Origin: a virus
Virus record (IMG/VR): IMGVR_UViG_3300009423_000014
Span: 1 to 34,493 of that record
DNA: 34,493 nt
Direction: 5' to 3' (one strand)
The position numbers and the translations under genes are program-made. Under the pieces are notes generated by a model that did not search any database, was not told where the DNA came from, and saw only the letters and a program-made list of their open reading frames with translations. Below are positions 3,539-22,793 of the stretch, piece by piece. Every line of letters starts with the position of its first letter. Position 1 is the stretch's first letter.

Positions 3539-5503
3539 TTATACAAGAGGGAATGAACTATGTGCCATATCTCTAAACTCTTTAACAACATCTTCTGCAA
3601 TCTCGCGAGCATTCCCACCATCTCCGGAAGTAACTTGTAAATTCTCCACGTGGAAAGTAGGTTGGTTACTACTAGATGCAGTTTTATTACTCACAGATCT
3701 TTCTAGGTTTTTAATCTCTAATGAGGTATCCCCTCCTGAGAATTTATCATATAAGAAGGTCAACCCTTCCATGAGTAAATATAAAGGTAGGAATCTTTTC
3801 ATTAATAAAGTTGCAGCAGAACGTATAGCCATTAAAGACCCTGCGAAAGTAAAACCTGCTTTAGACGCGGTGAATAGTCCAGCAGATAATCCCATAGCTT
3901 TTGCAGCCGCACCTCCTAATACTATAGACATCTTAGCTAATCCAGATATCAATAGAGGTATTAGGAAAGTACTTAGTAATTGAATAACCCTTGTTATACC
4001 TTCCCCTTCTTCTGCACCTAATAGTTCTGCTAATTTGCCTAACATTCTAAAAGGAAGTGCTATATACTCTGCTAATCTACCAAAAGTATACCCCAGTGCT
4101 GTAAGTGCAGGTGTTACTGCCTTAATAAGATTAGCTAAACCTCCAAATATGTTCTTAAACATATCATCTAATCCAGAAGCAGCCATTTTATCAATAGCTA
4201 CATCTCTGGCATTGATCATCCTAGTCTCTTCCGCAGAGATAGAAGATTTAAACTTAGCTAAAGCTCCTGTTTGTCTAGCCTGTTCACTCATAATCTTAGC
4301 AGATAGGTCTACAAACTTTTTAGCATCTACACCCATAAGTTTGAATGTATCTTTGAAACTCTTCTTACCGTCATCTGCCACTTGAGATACTTCATATCCC
4401 ATCTCAACTAATGCGTCTTTAGCTGCACCATAGAACGCTGGCATCTGATCCACAATCTGATTTATTTCTTGAGCCTGTACTACAGATCCCGACATCATTT
4501 GCCTAAAACCTAGAAAAGCTAATTTAGCGGATTCAGCACTTGTAGCGGAACCTGCTAGTGCCTCGGAAATGTTTATAAAAACTTCCCTAGCTTTTTCTCC
4601 CGATACTCCAGAAGATAACGCTGCCACGTTAAACGTAGCGAATGCCTTGGCTGTGTCTTTAAATCTAAGTCCTAAGTCATGAGTAAGGTCTTTTACAAAC
4701 TCCAGATCTTTGGCAGATTGTTTAGCACTACCAGATGCCAATAGAGATGCGACACCTATACTTTCCATGTCCTGAGCTGTTCTTTTAAGAAAACCTACAC
4801 CTCCTATTACGGCGAACACAGATATCCAACTTCTTGCCATGTTCTTTAAAGACTGACCTAGACCATCTGCTGCAAACTTCTGTGCATTAAAGTTTCTTGT
4901 TATAGCTGTAGTAGTTTTATTTAAACGTGTAACTTTAGTTATAGTGTCTTGTAGAGTTTCTTTATACTGTAAGAATTGCCTATCGCCTTTCTTGACAGAA
5001 GAGTTTAGTAAATCCTGAGCATTCTTTAAATGTTTAATGTGCTTTTCAAGTGCCGCCATCTGAGCTTTAGCTTGAGGTGAATTACTACCTTTCAGGCCAG
5101 CCATTTGACTATCAATCTTGTGTCTAGCTTGAGCTATTCTACGGTTCTCTGTTAGTAGAGTAGCTTCTTGCCTTAAAGCATTAGCCTCTGCAACTGCACT
5201 CTGTCTCTTGTGCATAGCTAGAGCTTGTTCATGTGCTATCTCTTTTCTAGCCTCGCGAGTCTTCTCTGCTGCAAGCTCCCTTCCTAATTGCTGTTGTTCT
5301 TTTAAAGCACGTTTCCTATCTTCTATAATACCTTTAGTATGTGCTTTATCAATATCGTGAGAGCCTTCTACTTTAACTTTTCTTTGCGTCTTTGCAGTAA
5401 GGTTATCTAAGTTCTTAAACCTAGTCTCTATATCTTTAAAACCCTTCTCTATTAAGGAGCCATCCCATTGTATTTGCATGGTATGGTTGTCATCTAATAA
5501 CAT
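3539..5503 (-). CDS. Tape measure protein
   Basis: At 654 residues this is the longest tail gene. Residues 1-200 are highly charged and helical, a likely coiled coil (KRALKEQQQLGRELAAEKTR, then many A/E/K/R heptads). Residues about 220-400 contain the tape measure N-terminal domain pattern, with FNVAALSSGVSGEKAREVF, FLGFRQMMSGSVVQAQEI and DQMPAFYGAAKDAL. Residues about 440-600 have several hydrophobic segments (FLIPLLISGLA, LPLYLLMEGLTFLY) of the kind that enter the host membrane during DNA ejection. The ATG at 5503 has an AGAGG site in front and lies three bases after the frameshifted chaperone stop. A second in-frame ATG eight codons in is possible but has no better site. Length fits a fairly short contractile tail. 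Confidence 0.9.
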   Translation of the reverse strand: MLLDDNHTMQIQWDGSLIEKGFKDIETRFKNLDNLTAKTQRKVKVEGSHDIDKAHTKGIIEDRKRALKEQQQLGRELAAEKTREARKEIAHEQALAMHKRQSAVAEANALRQEATLLTENRRIAQARHKIDSQMAGLKGSNSPQAKAQMAALEKHIKHLKNAQDLLNSSVKKGDRQFLQYKETLQDTITKVTRLNKTTTAITRNFNAQKFAADGLGQSLKNMARSWISVFAVIGGVGFLKRTAQDMESIGVASLLASGSAKQSAKDLEFVKDLTHDLGLRFKDTAKAFATFNVAALSSGVSGEKAREVFINISEALAGSATSAESAKLAFLGFRQMMSGSVVQAQEINQIVDQMPAFYGAAKDALVEMGYEVSQVADDGKKSFKDTFKLMGVDAKKFVDLSAKIMSEQARQTGALAKFKSSISAEETRMINARDVAIDKMAASGLDDMFKNIFGGLANLIKAVTPALTALGYTFGRLAEYIALPFRMLGKLAELLGAEEGEGITRVIQLLSTFLIPLLISGLAKMSIVLGGAAAKAMGLSAGLFTASKAGFTFAGSLMAIRSAATLLMKRFLPLYLLMEGLTFLYDKFSGGDTSLEIKNLERSVSNKTASSSNQPTFHVENLQVTSGDGGNAREIAEDVVKEFRDMAHSSFPLV

Positions 5504-6787: not shown

Positions 6788-8140
6788 TTATGATTCTGCT
6801 TCGTAAGTTAAGCTGCCTAGTATGACAACAATCTGAATACCACCTGCTAAGTATGCAGTGAAGCCTCCGTTATAAATCCTACTAGCGACATCTGCAAAAC
6901 TTACATCTGAACGTTTAGGGAAGTTAATCACATAAGGATTATCTTTCTGTAAGATATTAGCTTGCGTTTCTGTTTCAATGTAGCGGTCTAGTGTAGAAGA
7001 TAGTACGTTCTTTAATCGTGCAATACCTGAATCTGTGTAAGCAATCTTATCTTCACGTATCATAAAGTTCTGATAATTCTCTCTAACTCTTGCAGTTAAG
7101 AAGTCTCTATCTCTCATAACATCTGCAAATACAGTGGCTGTACCAGATGAAGTACCTTGACGTGTAATTGCAACACCCGCTACTACCTCTGTAAATGAAC
7201 CATTACTATTGACTAGATTGGTCTTATCCGTTGTACTTAAATAGTTACCTGTTAGTGGGTTCTTAGCTGCTTCTATCTTAGTAACATTGTTAGCTACAAT
7301 CCTCTTACCTGCATCATAAGGTGCTAGGATAGAGATGTATTCCATCTCAGGAAACTTAGTATCTGCATCATGGTGAAACCAGTAGTATGTCCTATCACGT
7401 GCTTCTTGCTTTAGTTGTGCAGGGGTATGTGTAGCTGATTCTGAGTAAACACCTAAATCTGCTTGCTCTTGTGTAGATACCCAGTACTGCTTAGTACGTG
7501 CTTGAATATCTTGAGCTAATGCTAATACAAATGCTTGACTATGATCACTACATGCTACAAAATAGAAGTCATCATCTGCATCTGTAATAGTTGCCATCAT
7601 ATCTGCTGCTGATTGTGTAGTAACAGTTGTGTAAGTAAACTTGGCTACGTCTGTAACTGCATAAACTGCTGTACCAGATTTAGATAATGTAATACTACCT
7701 GTATCATCTACGACAGTAACACCTGCTGGTGATCCTAATGCAGTAAAGATAGCAGTAGCAATAGTAGAAGCTGTCTCTGAACCTGTAGTAGTTGTAAAGG
7801 TAGCAGTGGTAGTTACATCTGCTGTATCTAATACTTCTAAGGTGTAGATCTGACCTGCCGCTGTAGCTGCTTCTGGCGTGAAAGTAATGCTATCTACTTC
7901 CCTACGGCCTACTTTAACAATAATAGGATCTACGTCTTGAGCATAAGCTGATTGCATAGCTGCATAAACGTTAGAGCTAGTGGGGATATCTGCTTTAATA
8001 GCATCAAATGATGTATATGATCTTGTTTGTTCTTTAAACCAGACGTGATCAGCAATGAAAATAGGAGTACCAAAAGATTCCCTATTAACGGCTGTAACGT
8101 CTAGTGCTATGTTCACCGTGACAAATGGTTGATATGACAA
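6788..8140 (-). CDS. Tail sheath protein (DUF3383-like)
   Basis: A 450-residue protein with an N-terminal MSYQPFVTVNIALDVTAVNR and a C-terminal SDVSFADVASRIYNGGFTAY then GGIQIVVILGSLTYE, the pattern of DUF3383 sheath proteins. In the middle, residues about 85-185 are Thr/Ala/Val-rich, probably an outward-facing insertion domain. The sheath contracts to drive the tube through the host envelope. The start codon is TTG at 8140 with AGGAG seven bases upstream, and no ATG or GTG in the same area gives a full-length family N-terminus. A TTG start is unusual for such an abundant protein. Confidence 0.88.
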   Translation of the reverse strand: MSYQPFVTVNIALDVTAVNRESFGTPIFIADHVWFKEQTRSYTSFDAIKADIPTSSNVYAAMQSAYAQDVDPIIVKVGRREVDSITFTPEAATAAGQIYTLEVLDTADVTTTATFTTTTGSETASTIATAIFTALGSPAGVTVVDDTGSITLSKSGTAVYAVTDVAKFTYTTVTTQSAADMMATITDADDDFYFVACSDHSQAFVLALAQDIQARTKQYWVSTQEQADLGVYSESATHTPAQLKQEARDRTYYWFHHDADTKFPEMEYISILAPYDAGKRIVANNVTKIEAAKNPLTGNYLSTTDKTNLVNSNGSFTEVVAGVAITRQGTSSGTATVFADVMRDRDFLTARVRENYQNFMIREDKIAYTDSGIARLKNVLSSTLDRYIETETQANILQKDNPYVINFPKRSDVSFADVASRIYNGGFTAYLAGGIQIVVILGSLTYEAES

Positions 8141-20340: not shown

Positions 20341-20370
20341 TTGACATTACCTAATAAATATGTATATAAT
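20341..20370 (+). promoter_or_regulatory. Sigma70-type promoter before the tRNA-like stretch
   Basis: TTGACA (20341-20346), an 18-base spacer ending TATGTA, and TATAAT (20365-20370). Both hexamers are perfect. It starts three bases after the stop of the early gene and leads into a non-coding stretch. A 7-bp hairpin (AATACTT at 20391-20397, AAGTATT at 20408-20414) lies near the start of the transcript. Confidence 0.8.
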
Positions 20371-20494: not shown

Positions 20495-20571
20495 GGGACG
20501 GTAGCATAACAGGTATATGCACTCCGCTCATAACGGAGAGATACTAAGTTCGAGACTTAGGTAGCACACCA
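20495..20571 (+). tRNA. tRNA-Met(CAT)-like gene with unpaired acceptor stem
   Basis: A D arm (GCAT 20504-20507 with ATGC 20517-20520), a 5-bp anticodon stem (CTCCG/CGGAG) with loop CTCATAA (anticodon CAT at 20529-20531), a T arm (CTAAG, loop TTCGAGA, CTTAG, 20544-20560) and a 3' ACCA (20568-20571) are all present and correctly spaced for 77 bases. But the 5' seven bases GGGACGG (20495-20501) do not pair with the 3' GTAGCAC (20561-20567). It may be a decayed or recombined tRNA gene, or a transcript that is repaired. Confidence 0.6.
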
Positions 20572-20577
20572 ATTAAT

Positions 20578-20665
20578 ATTCCCTGTCCCCACACCAGTCT
20601 TCTAAACTGGCGACATTAAATAGTGGGATGGAAGTCAAGGAGTTCGATACTCTCAGGGAATACCA
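20578..20665 (+). tRNA. tRNA-Arg(TCT)-like gene lacking a normal D arm
   Basis: The acceptor stem pairs perfectly (ATTCCCT at 20578-20584 with AGGGAAT at 20655-20661), followed by ACCA (20662-20665). The anticodon arm CCAGT/ACTGG has loop CTTCTAA with anticodon TCT (20601-20603), and the T arm has loop TTCGATA (20643-20649). Only nine bases separate acceptor and anticodon stems, so no D arm fits. Instead 27 bases lie between anticodon and T arms, and GTGGGA (20623-20628) can pair with TCCCCAC (20586-20592). Total length is 88 bases. It ends 14 bases before the HNH gene. Confidence 0.55.
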
Positions 20666-20679
20666 ACATAAGGATTACT

Positions 20680-21141
20680 ATGGATATAAATAGGATATTA
20701 CCTAATATAATTAAGGATGATAATAACTGCTGGAACTGGACTAAGAGTTGTAATAGTGCAGGGTATGGGCAAATAATGGAGAAAAAGAAGTACTGGCTTA
20801 CTCATAGGTATAGTTATAATATAAAGTATGGAGATCTAGGGGATAAGGATATTGTAAGACACTTATGCCATAATACTAAGTGTTGTAATCCTGAACACTT
20901 GGTTAAGGGTTCTCACAAAGATAACTATAATGATTCCTTAGATATACATAGAGCTGCATCATTGAAAAGAAGGCATACTTGGATAGTAGAAGGGAAGGTA
21001 TACGGTACTTGCAGAGATGTAGTTAAACAGACAGACCTGAGTAGTAATTCAGTAATAAGGTTTACAAAGAACGGTGTATTTGATTATGAATCTTATAAGG
21101 CATCTTGTAAAATAGCTAATGTTATTCCAAGGGTTTTATAA
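20680..21141 (+). CDS. HNH homing endonuclease
   Basis: A 153-residue protein with a classic phage HNH core: THRYSY (His 42), then VRHLCHNTKCCNPEHL with Cys 63, His 64, Asn 65, Cys 68/69 and His 73, and KDNYNDSL after it. The C-terminal part (CRDVVKQTDLSSNSVIRFTK) looks like a small DNA-binding helical repeat used for target recognition. The ATG at 20680 has AAGGA close upstream. The frame extends upstream into the tRNA-like gene but has no site there. It is a free-standing mobile gene next to tRNA-like genes, a common home for such endonucleases. Confidence 0.88.
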   Translation: MDINRILPNIIKDDNNCWNWTKSCNSAGYGQIMEKKKYWLTHRYSYNIKYGDLGDKDIVRHLCHNTKCCNPEHLVKGSHKDNYNDSLDIHRAASLKRRHTWIVEGKVYGTCRDVVKQTDLSSNSVIRFTKNGVFDYESYKASCKIANVIPRVL

Positions 21142-22127
21142 TTTACATGATTAATAATACTTAGAATACTCCTTGATGGAGAGTATAGTGCAATGACCTT
21201 AGAGTCCTTATCATCAAAACGTAATCCTGATGCCACTAAAGAGCATCCCCAGAGGCTAGTAACTGGGCAACCCTGCACCACTATGTTATAACAGGATACA
21301 CCCGCTTTATGGGTAGGATAATGTAAACATAGTATATTAAGAGTGTACCTAGACGATTGGTAACTAGGATTATTTAAGATGTACATACATTACAAATGTA
21401 TAGGCTGATATACCTTAAACACTATTAGAGGTTCTTAATCTTATTGATTAATGCCATAGTCTTATAGAAGCCAGAGATCAGTACTGGTGGGTGTATGTAT
21501 ATCTTAAATAATAAATAAGCGGCTTTTCGATGCAGTATGTCTACCGCTATACAAATAAGAAATGACCAACTTCGAAATAAGTCTAAACTAGCATGATGAG
21601 TAACGTTGATTTTCAGCACTTGTCATTTATATTGTTTTACTCTATACTATGAAGAATATTATCATAGTACGGTTGGTATAGGTGGCTGCGGTATCTGGGG
21701 CGAGCTAGAGTGATCTAGGCTGGATATTCGTGAAGAGGGCGGTGTATTGTAAGGCTATTCTTAGCGTGTCTTACAATCTAAACGAGGGAACACATGTGAT
21801 ACCTTATATGTTAAAGTATAAGGAGGGTGTATAGATAATTTATATACTCAACCTGTAATTAAAGAGACAGGCTATCGGAGCTTATATCTCCATGCTATTT
21901 AGCATATAACTATCCTCGATAAGTGAAATGATCTGAACCACTAAGTTATGAAAGTATACCTTAGCGTATATAACAATAAGAGAGGTTATCCTGTTAGGGT
22001 ACTGTTTCTACTTGTACTATTGTAAGAAATTATAATATACAAGTATTACTATAGTATTCTATCACGATAAGCCCTCTTGATTCTGAGTGCATGAAATAAA
22101 AGTAAATATAATGATGAGGTTTTTAGT
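21142..22127 (+). ncRNA. Gene-free stretch with promoter and many hairpins, candidate structured RNA
   Basis: Nearly 1 kb has no convincing gene on either strand and sits between two HNH genes. Hairpins from left to right: 21166-21186 (7 bp), 21348-21368 (5 bp), 21385-21401 (7 bp, 3-base loop), then after a promoter at 21620: a closing pair GAATAT/ATATTC (21654-21659, 21724-21729), 21703-21721 with GTGA loop, 21746-21777 (8 bp plus inner 4 bp), 21802-21823 (7 bp), 21852-21871 (5 bp), a small multi-arm unit 21873-21921, and 22011-22043 (14 bp, one bulge, GAAA loop). The density and GNRA-type loops suggest one or more structured RNAs. The class is unknown. Confidence 0.45.
21620..21648 (+). promoter_or_regulatory. 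Sigma70-type promoter inside the gene-free stretch
   Basis: TTGTCA (21620-21625), a 17-base spacer and TATACT (21643-21648). Transcription would start near 21655, exactly where the closing stem of the first hairpin domain begins, and run through the hairpin chain towards the second HNH gene. Confidence 0.6.
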
Positions 22128-22793
22128 ATGAGAAAAACATTAGAATTAGAGGGGAGAGTATTTAGCAGGTTGACAGTGGTAGAAAAAGACACTATAAGAA
22201 GTAAAGATAGGAAGGTTAAGTGGTTTTGCAAATGTGATTGCGGAGTTATAGTAAGCGTTACTTCTGGTAACTTAAAAAGTGGTAATACTAAGAGTTGTGG
22301 GTGTTTGAATAAGGAAGCTACCACCTCTCATGGGTTATATAAACACCCTTTATATAATGTATGGAGTAATATGAAAAAGAGGTGTAATAATATAAAAAAT
22401 CCATACTACGCGGACTATGGCGGCAGGGGTATTACTATTTGTAATAGGTGGTTAGAATCTATAAGTAATTTCATAGAAGATATGGGGGAGGGTTATCAAT
22501 TAGGTTTAGAGTTAGATAGAATAGATAATGATGGTAACTATGAACCTAGTAACTGTAGATGGGTTACTTCTGCACAGAACAGTATGAATACTAGATCACG
22601 AAAAAACTCAAGTAGTAAGTATAAAGGAGTGAGTTGGTATACTAAGATTGGTAAGTGGGCTGCTCAAATAGAAAAGAATAGTGAAGTCCACCGCTTAGGT
22701 TACTTCACTTGTGAAGAAGAGGCAGCTCTAGTCTATAATGAAAAAGCTTTGCAATTATTTGGTGAGTATACCTACTTAAATAAAGTAAATTAA
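22128..22793 (+). CDS. HNH endonuclease with zinc-ribbon N-terminus and AP2 domain
   Basis: A 221-residue homing endonuclease. Residues about 35-65 hold a Cys-rich knuckle (WFCKCDCG, then SCGCL). Next come SNMKKRCNN, YGGRGITICNRW and the HNH-type core LELDRIDNDGNYEPSNCRW. The C-terminal 60 residues are an AP2-like DNA-binding domain (SSKYKGVSWYTKIGKWAAQI, then GYFTCEEEAALVYNEKA). This domain set is common in phage homing genes. It follows the hairpin-rich stretch, so its leader is long and structured. Ribosome binding is weak (TGAGG). Confidence 0.87.
   Translation: MRKTLELEGRVFSRLTVVEKDTIRSKDRKVKWFCKCDCGVIVSVTSGNLKSGNTKSCGCLNKEATTSHGLYKHPLYNVWSNMKKRCNNIKNPYYADYGGRGITICNRWLESISNFIEDMGEGYQLGLELDRIDNDGNYEPSNCRWVTSAQNSMNTRSRKNSSSKYKGVSWYTKIGKWAAQIEKNSEVHRLGYFTCEEEAALVYNEKALQLFGEYTYLNKVN

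Follow-up and report, generated by a model that had tools for sequence, protein, structure and literature searches.

A probable new family of giant structured RNAs beside phage tRNA genes

The gene-free stretch at positions 21142-22127 of the phage DNA studied here probably encodes a giant structured RNA belonging to a phage RNA family (~770-1050 nt) that had not been catalogued; its members would be scaffolds resembling GOLLD and ROOL. The evidence comes from homology, genomic position, promoter conservation, covarying structure, domain swapping and the absence of coding. The window, by which we mean the whole stretch of DNA analysed, is part (34.5 kb) of a contractile-tailed phage genome and encodes a sheath protein, a terminase, a portal protein and a class I ribonucleotide reductase. 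Among named phages, Pseudoalteromonas phage H101 has the most similar terminase (48% identity), and phages of Klebsiella, Vibrio and Aeromonas come next. Genes on the left side of the window are on the - strand and those on the right side are on the + strand, with the gap located just inside the + side.

A gap of nearly 1 kb had been proposed in the original prediction and this was borne out, as no + strand open reading frame of at least 40 amino acids was found in the 986 nt scanned. Two antisense open reading frames in the gap (97 and 64 amino acids) have no PHROG family match and are broken or absent in the homologues, and were rejected as genes. The features surrounding the gap are as follows.

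20341-20370, + strand: perfect sigma-70 promoter, TTGACA-18-TATAAT (12/12), upstream of the tRNA cluster and the RNA
20502-20560, + strand: tRNA body with anticodon CAT (Rfam tRNA model, 34.4 bits, positions 8-63 of 71)
20578-20665, + strand: non-canonical tRNA-Arg(UCU) with no D arm, from alignments of nine phages; the 3' CCA is encoded
20680-21141, + strand: free-standing HNH homing-type endonuclease (PHROG and Pfam HNH matches)
22128-22793, + strand: downstream HNH/AP2 homing-type endonuclease (PHROG HNH matches; Pfam AP2 match weak and below cut-off)

Sequence comparison indicates that the HNH gene at 20680-21141 occupies the place of the last tRNA, which is a tRNA-Arg(CCT) in two related contigs (L002 and L003). 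Free-standing HNH genes were also observed to cluster near such tRNA/RNA loci in several phages, as if homing in.

Four related phage contigs carry the RNA at full length, namely the window, L002, L003 and L035. The homologues were reached through neighbouring genes rather than through the RNA, with ribonucleotide reductase leading to L002 and L003 and terminase leading to L035. Their RNAs measure ~770 nt in L003, ~900 nt in L035 and ~1050 nt in L002. In BLAST, the window RNA is 80-85% identical to those of L002 and L003 over a series of segments, with stretches between them that cannot be aligned, and L035 matches the L002 RNA in its 3' half at 75% identity. The first 100 nt of the RNA also occur in L055/L040. 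A pattern scan for further homologues with the 5' motif TAACTGGGCAACCCTGCA returned only L002, L003 and two chance coding matches, two scans with 3' motifs matched only L002, L003 and L035, and a pattern scan of a genome collection gave ten chance matches, none with a flanking helix. The core pattern described below was missing from 274 genomes of the class of L058 (Shewanella). Phage H101 appears, as judged by eye, to carry a protein gene at the place where the RNA would be expected. A 2-kb gene-poor gap in L036 was considered as a candidate and dropped, since it folds no better than shuffled sequences (z +0.6). The window and L003 form a mosaic in which ribonucleotide reductase is 95% identical, terminase only 39% and the 5' domain of the giant RNA 85% (DNA).

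The RNA lies directly downstream of tRNAs in all four contigs, and in L002, L003 and L035 it starts at most ~10 nt from the last tRNA. The order in L003 is promoter, tRNA-Gly, tRNA-Ile, two tRNA-Arg and the RNA; in L035 it is promoter, tRNA-Met, tRNA-Arg and the RNA with a tRNA-Trp inside; in L002 it is a tRNA-Arg without a D arm, a tRNA-Arg(CCT)-like sequence and the RNA with a tRNA inside. A 12/12 promoter on the RNA strand was found at the equivalent place in L002 (4480-4509) and L003 (2864-2893), both being TTGACA-18-TATAAT, and L035 has a 12/12 TTGACA-17-TATAAT on its RNA strand (4772-4800, - strand). Judging from these sequences, the site at 20341-20370 is the probable promoter of the whole tRNA and giant-RNA unit. 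The good promoter that had been placed at 21620 matches at 10/12 positions only, a level reached by 13 sites where 12.1 are expected, and it sits inside the RNA; a free-standing promoter there is not supported, the conserved 12/12 site being the one at 20341. The RNA strand of the window, L002, L003 and L035 showed no intrinsic terminator.

Within the cluster of the window, the tRNA body at 20502-20560 has no 5' acceptor strand pairing with its 3' end, is not called by ARAGORN and is probably a degraded tRNA. The tRNA-Arg(UCU) behind it is 88 nt long, lies ~500 nt upstream of the giant RNA and is the last tRNA-like element before it. The acceptor, anticodon and T arms are kept while the D arm is missing; a five-pair helix of the CCCAC/GTGGG type encloses the anticodon arm, and a conserved GG is found within the enlarged, long variable region. 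This element is carried by no fewer than nine phages, whose hosts are Acinetobacter, Vibrio/Enterovibrio, Escherichia or uncultured: the window, L002 (4635-4720), L045, phage HSd1, Acinetobacter phages phiAB441, YMC13/03/R2096 and AM24, Vibrio phage 1.084.O and Escherichia phage Av-05. Our alignment of the nine shows 98% of cells paired, two-sided changes in 19 of the 23 pairs and a covariation of 0.81 against 0.27 when shuffled. ARAGORN did not call it in the window or L002, it was absent from the Rfam tRNA matches at the six named-phage loci, and the named phage records all lack an annotation for it. Our literature search found D-armless tRNAs only in animal mitochondria, and the element is possibly a new tRNA architecture in phages. 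In L071 and L075 the D-armless tRNA is likewise followed by an HNH gene, and L070 has a putative endonuclease.

The giant RNA of the window can be divided into the following parts.

21165-21364, + strand: 5' domain; hairpin ATACTC/GAGTAT, followed by sequence that is highly conserved except for one variable hairpin
21369-21389, + strand: 5' arm of the central stem, an inverted repeat 95% complementary
21390-21491, + strand: variable linker inside the central stem, where the homologues are not alignable
21492-21512, + strand: 3' arm of the central stem, pairing with 21369-21389 over 21 bp
21517-21560, + strand: universal core hairpin, AGCGG-(loop with AUGCAGU)-CCGCU, then UAUA-n-AAA-n-AA
21569-21582, + strand: small hairpin ACUU/AAGU, which is ACUC/GAGU in relatives (C-G to U-A, pairing kept)
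21611-22096, + strand: window-specific 3' domain, self-closed, a row of hairpins
21645-21669, 21746-21777, 21802-21823 and 21825-21849, + strand: further hairpins of the window
22009-22045, + strand: GAAA-tetraloop hairpin, two 8-bp stems with a one-base bulge (pair probability 0.98-0.99)

The structure had been thought to run from 21620, but the conserved RNA already begins near 21165, so that the portion upstream of 21620 is the best conserved (85% identical to L003). The 5' domain is common to the window, L002 and L003 at 83-85% identity and is different in L035. Covariation in this domain is weak (z -1.3) because the sequence is too conserved, leaving one variable hairpin in which it can be tested. 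The central stem was missed by the original prediction and is the longest inverted repeat of the window with more than 90% complementarity within 400 nt. It is 21-23 bp long and occupies the same position in all four contigs with largely different sequences, enclosing 51-118 nt. The linker contains a tRNA-Trp in L035 (4002-4083, - strand) and a Leu-like tRNA in L002 (5140-5256, 42.7 bits), the pairing of which runs past the acceptor stem into the flanks.

The core hairpin with UAUAUAAACAA behind it was observed in the window, L002, L003, L035 and L084. The L084 copy (7694-7744, - strand) is in a 398-nt gap just behind an antirepressor-like gene, in a contig that is otherwise an unrelated phage. 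The match reaches past the searched pattern, which argues against chance, and the 398-nt gap folds only at z -1.5. Because it is found in this otherwise unrelated contig, the core hairpin could be a mobile RNA motif of wide occurrence. Folded together from the 5' domain through the stem and core, the window and L003 score z -5.1, with a coding control at z +0.35.

Covariation among homologues, proposed as a check of the RNA, was found most extensively in the ~400-nt 3' domain common to L002, L003 and L035. Its anchored consensus fold scores z -9.6 against column shuffles, a generous figure since column shuffling does not preserve dinucleotides. A total of 61 of the 83 pairs are formed in all three sequences and 21 of the 83 show two-sided changes. 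In the terminal part, 95% of cells are paired and the covariation is 0.44, compared with 0.23 for shuffled and at most 0.16 for slid alignments. A covariance model of this terminal part (R1) matches only its own three sequences and neither the window 3' domain nor Vibrio phage ICP1.

Past ~21590 the window can no longer be aligned to its relatives and the final ~490 nt differ. The window 3' domain had no convincing match at any retrieved locus. Because no homologue was found, its structure is taken from the folding of a single sequence, in which 21595-22110 folds at z -2.9 with none of 60 shuffles as low. The stems described earlier for this part are present, including the closing helix (21611-21621/22085-22096, 11 bp with one bulged base), the hairpins and the GAAA-capped hairpin. 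L035 shows the opposite exchange, combining the common 3' domain with a 5' domain of its own. As the window swaps its 3' domain and L035 its 5' domain, the RNA family appears, on a comparison of these sequences, to be modular with the two domains as exchanged units.

The proposed comparison with shuffled sequences also favoured folding, since the + strand of the 986-nt gap scores z -4.2 in 20 dinucleotide shuffles and z -3.3 in 60, none of which was as low. The reverse strand scores z -2.3 and the two HNH genes z -0.3 and -0.6. An equally long coding stretch of ribonucleotide reductase reaches z -2.2, so that fold energy alone is moderate evidence and the homologues decide. Several helices contain a G-U pair on the + strand that would be A-C on the other, and these pairs, together with the strand asymmetry of z -3.3 against -2.3, point to an RNA made from the + strand. 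They also weigh against a role of the stretch as DNA, for instance as a replication origin or an inverted-repeat-rich recombination site, a reading to which the gene-orientation switch and the long central repeat would be suited. The G-U pairs are found in the covarying helices, the promoter and the tRNAs likewise point to a + strand RNA, and we consider a DNA element very unlikely. It is scarcely credible that the stretch is a 5' leader or cis-acting regulator of the HNH gene downstream, or that it is a degenerate intron of group I or II surrounding that gene. This gene does start 31 nt past the structured stretch and homing endonucleases frequently accompany introns. However, in L002, L003 and L035 the RNA is followed by other genes and, by gene order, that site lacks an HNH gene, which speaks against the idea that the RNA regulates the HNH gene behind it. 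Models of group I (RF00028) and group II introns have no match anywhere in the window, while the same Rfam library detects clear group I introns in two related phages (L036 12335-12624 and 12883-13208; L045 4544-4774). The RNA is located between tRNAs and genes and not inside a gene, so the suggestion of a degenerate intron also falls away, and the second HNH gene on the opposite side is what would be expected when homing genes invade a locus.

Two further explanations accept the RNA and differ on its status. With HNH genes on both sides, the window copy could be damaged, and it may be a decaying remnant in which a real 5' RNA lost its 3' domain to HNH-linked recombination and became non-functional. 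The window 3' domain matching nothing found in this analysis and the missing 5' acceptor strand of the 20502 tRNA would fit such decay. We give it a modest chance, as the replacement domain is well folded and closed by its 11-bp helix, the 5' domain has kept its identity to L003, and the mirror swap in L035 makes swapping look normal. To a very divergent GOLLD or ROOL member missed by the Rfam models we assign a small chance. The setting in phage tRNA islands with HNH genes nearby, the size, the separate domains and the linker tRNA would all agree with it, and the 416 positions of the Rfam GOLLD model are close to the length of the common 3' domain. Against it, neither model has a match at E ≤ 10 in the window, L002, L003 or L035; for ROOL (RF03087) the known plasmid pMP118 served as a control and matches at 130.4 bits, and for GOLLD (RF02032) the result is without a positive control, none being found in 119 genomes of the phylum of G013 (Bacillota). 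GOLLD is also most conserved in its 3' region, yet the 3' domain of the window differs from that of its relatives. Of the earlier readings, a new phage non-coding RNA is the one supported, by the homologues, the covariation, the lack of a conserved open reading frame and the suggested Rfam search, in which no RNA-family entry matches the giant RNA.

For this uncatalogued RNA family, transcription, processing, assembly and function are inferred. Transcription would start at the conserved promoter at 20341 and proceed through the tRNA cluster into the RNA, the 5' end of which would probably be made by trimming at the last tRNA. The mature RNA would then consist of the 5' domain, the long central stem presenting the variable linker or tRNA, the core hairpin and the 3' domain. 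The 5' and 3' domains would be modules swapped among phages, as in GOLLD, with the window having the common 5' and a different 3' domain. Most likely the product acts as RNA itself, as a GOLLD/ROOL-like scaffold that possibly self-assembles and holds the linker or tRNA, perhaps near ribosomes during infection. We also put forward, tentatively, that unrelated 5' and 3' domains are exchanged around the core and a rigid stem and that some or all of these RNAs self-assemble, making a third, modular class of RNA cages. An independent third lineage in the same setting would imply that the tRNA-island position matters to the role of such RNAs. Domain swaps between close relatives provide natural chimeras for assigning function to parts, and the constant core hairpin, which an unrelated phage carries as well, lends itself to mutation and pull-down experiments.

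GOLLD and ROOL are phage RNAs, some of which build cages larger than a ribosome, GOLLD self-assembling into a 14-mer cage, and to our knowledge these cages have no known function. Because no Rfam family matches the giant RNA, it is linked to them only by position and architecture; we do not file it as GOLLD or ROOL, and the suggestion that it may work like them comes from its anatomy. Both are large RNAs of phages, located close to tRNA islands, and their assembly gives hollow cages that enclose the linkers, some of which carry tRNAs (PMC12286853). A further comparison is with Vibrio phage ICP1, where an ~800-nt ncRNA in an ORF-less gap of ~1 kb is the most abundant phage transcript and was compared in size to GOLLD and ROOL by its authors (PMC7567579). 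The gap is of the same kind as in the window, but ICP1 has no tRNAs and, as noted, is not matched by R1. ROOL, like the giant RNA, is a phage RNA located near tRNA islands; it measures ~600 nt, folds in a complex way and has a linker. Its 5' and 3' regions have been described as intertwined, in contrast to the independent swapping of those of the giant RNA. GOLLD rises during lysis; its 3' region is conserved, its 5' region varies and its linker carries tRNAs (PMC12286853). It adjoins an HNH gene in mycobacterial tRNA clusters (PMC6582537). Like the giant RNA, it is phage-borne, located beside tRNAs, ~800 nt or more in length and near an HNH gene (PMC12286853, PMC6582537), with separate 5' and 3' domains of which one is swapped between relatives and with a tRNA in some linkers. 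The GOLLD-type pattern of a common 3' and variable 5' domain was observed in L002, L003 and L035 and is reversed in the window. The giant RNA differs from GOLLD in that its 3' domain is replaceable too, and its constant piece is the ~45-nt core hairpin together with the long central stem.
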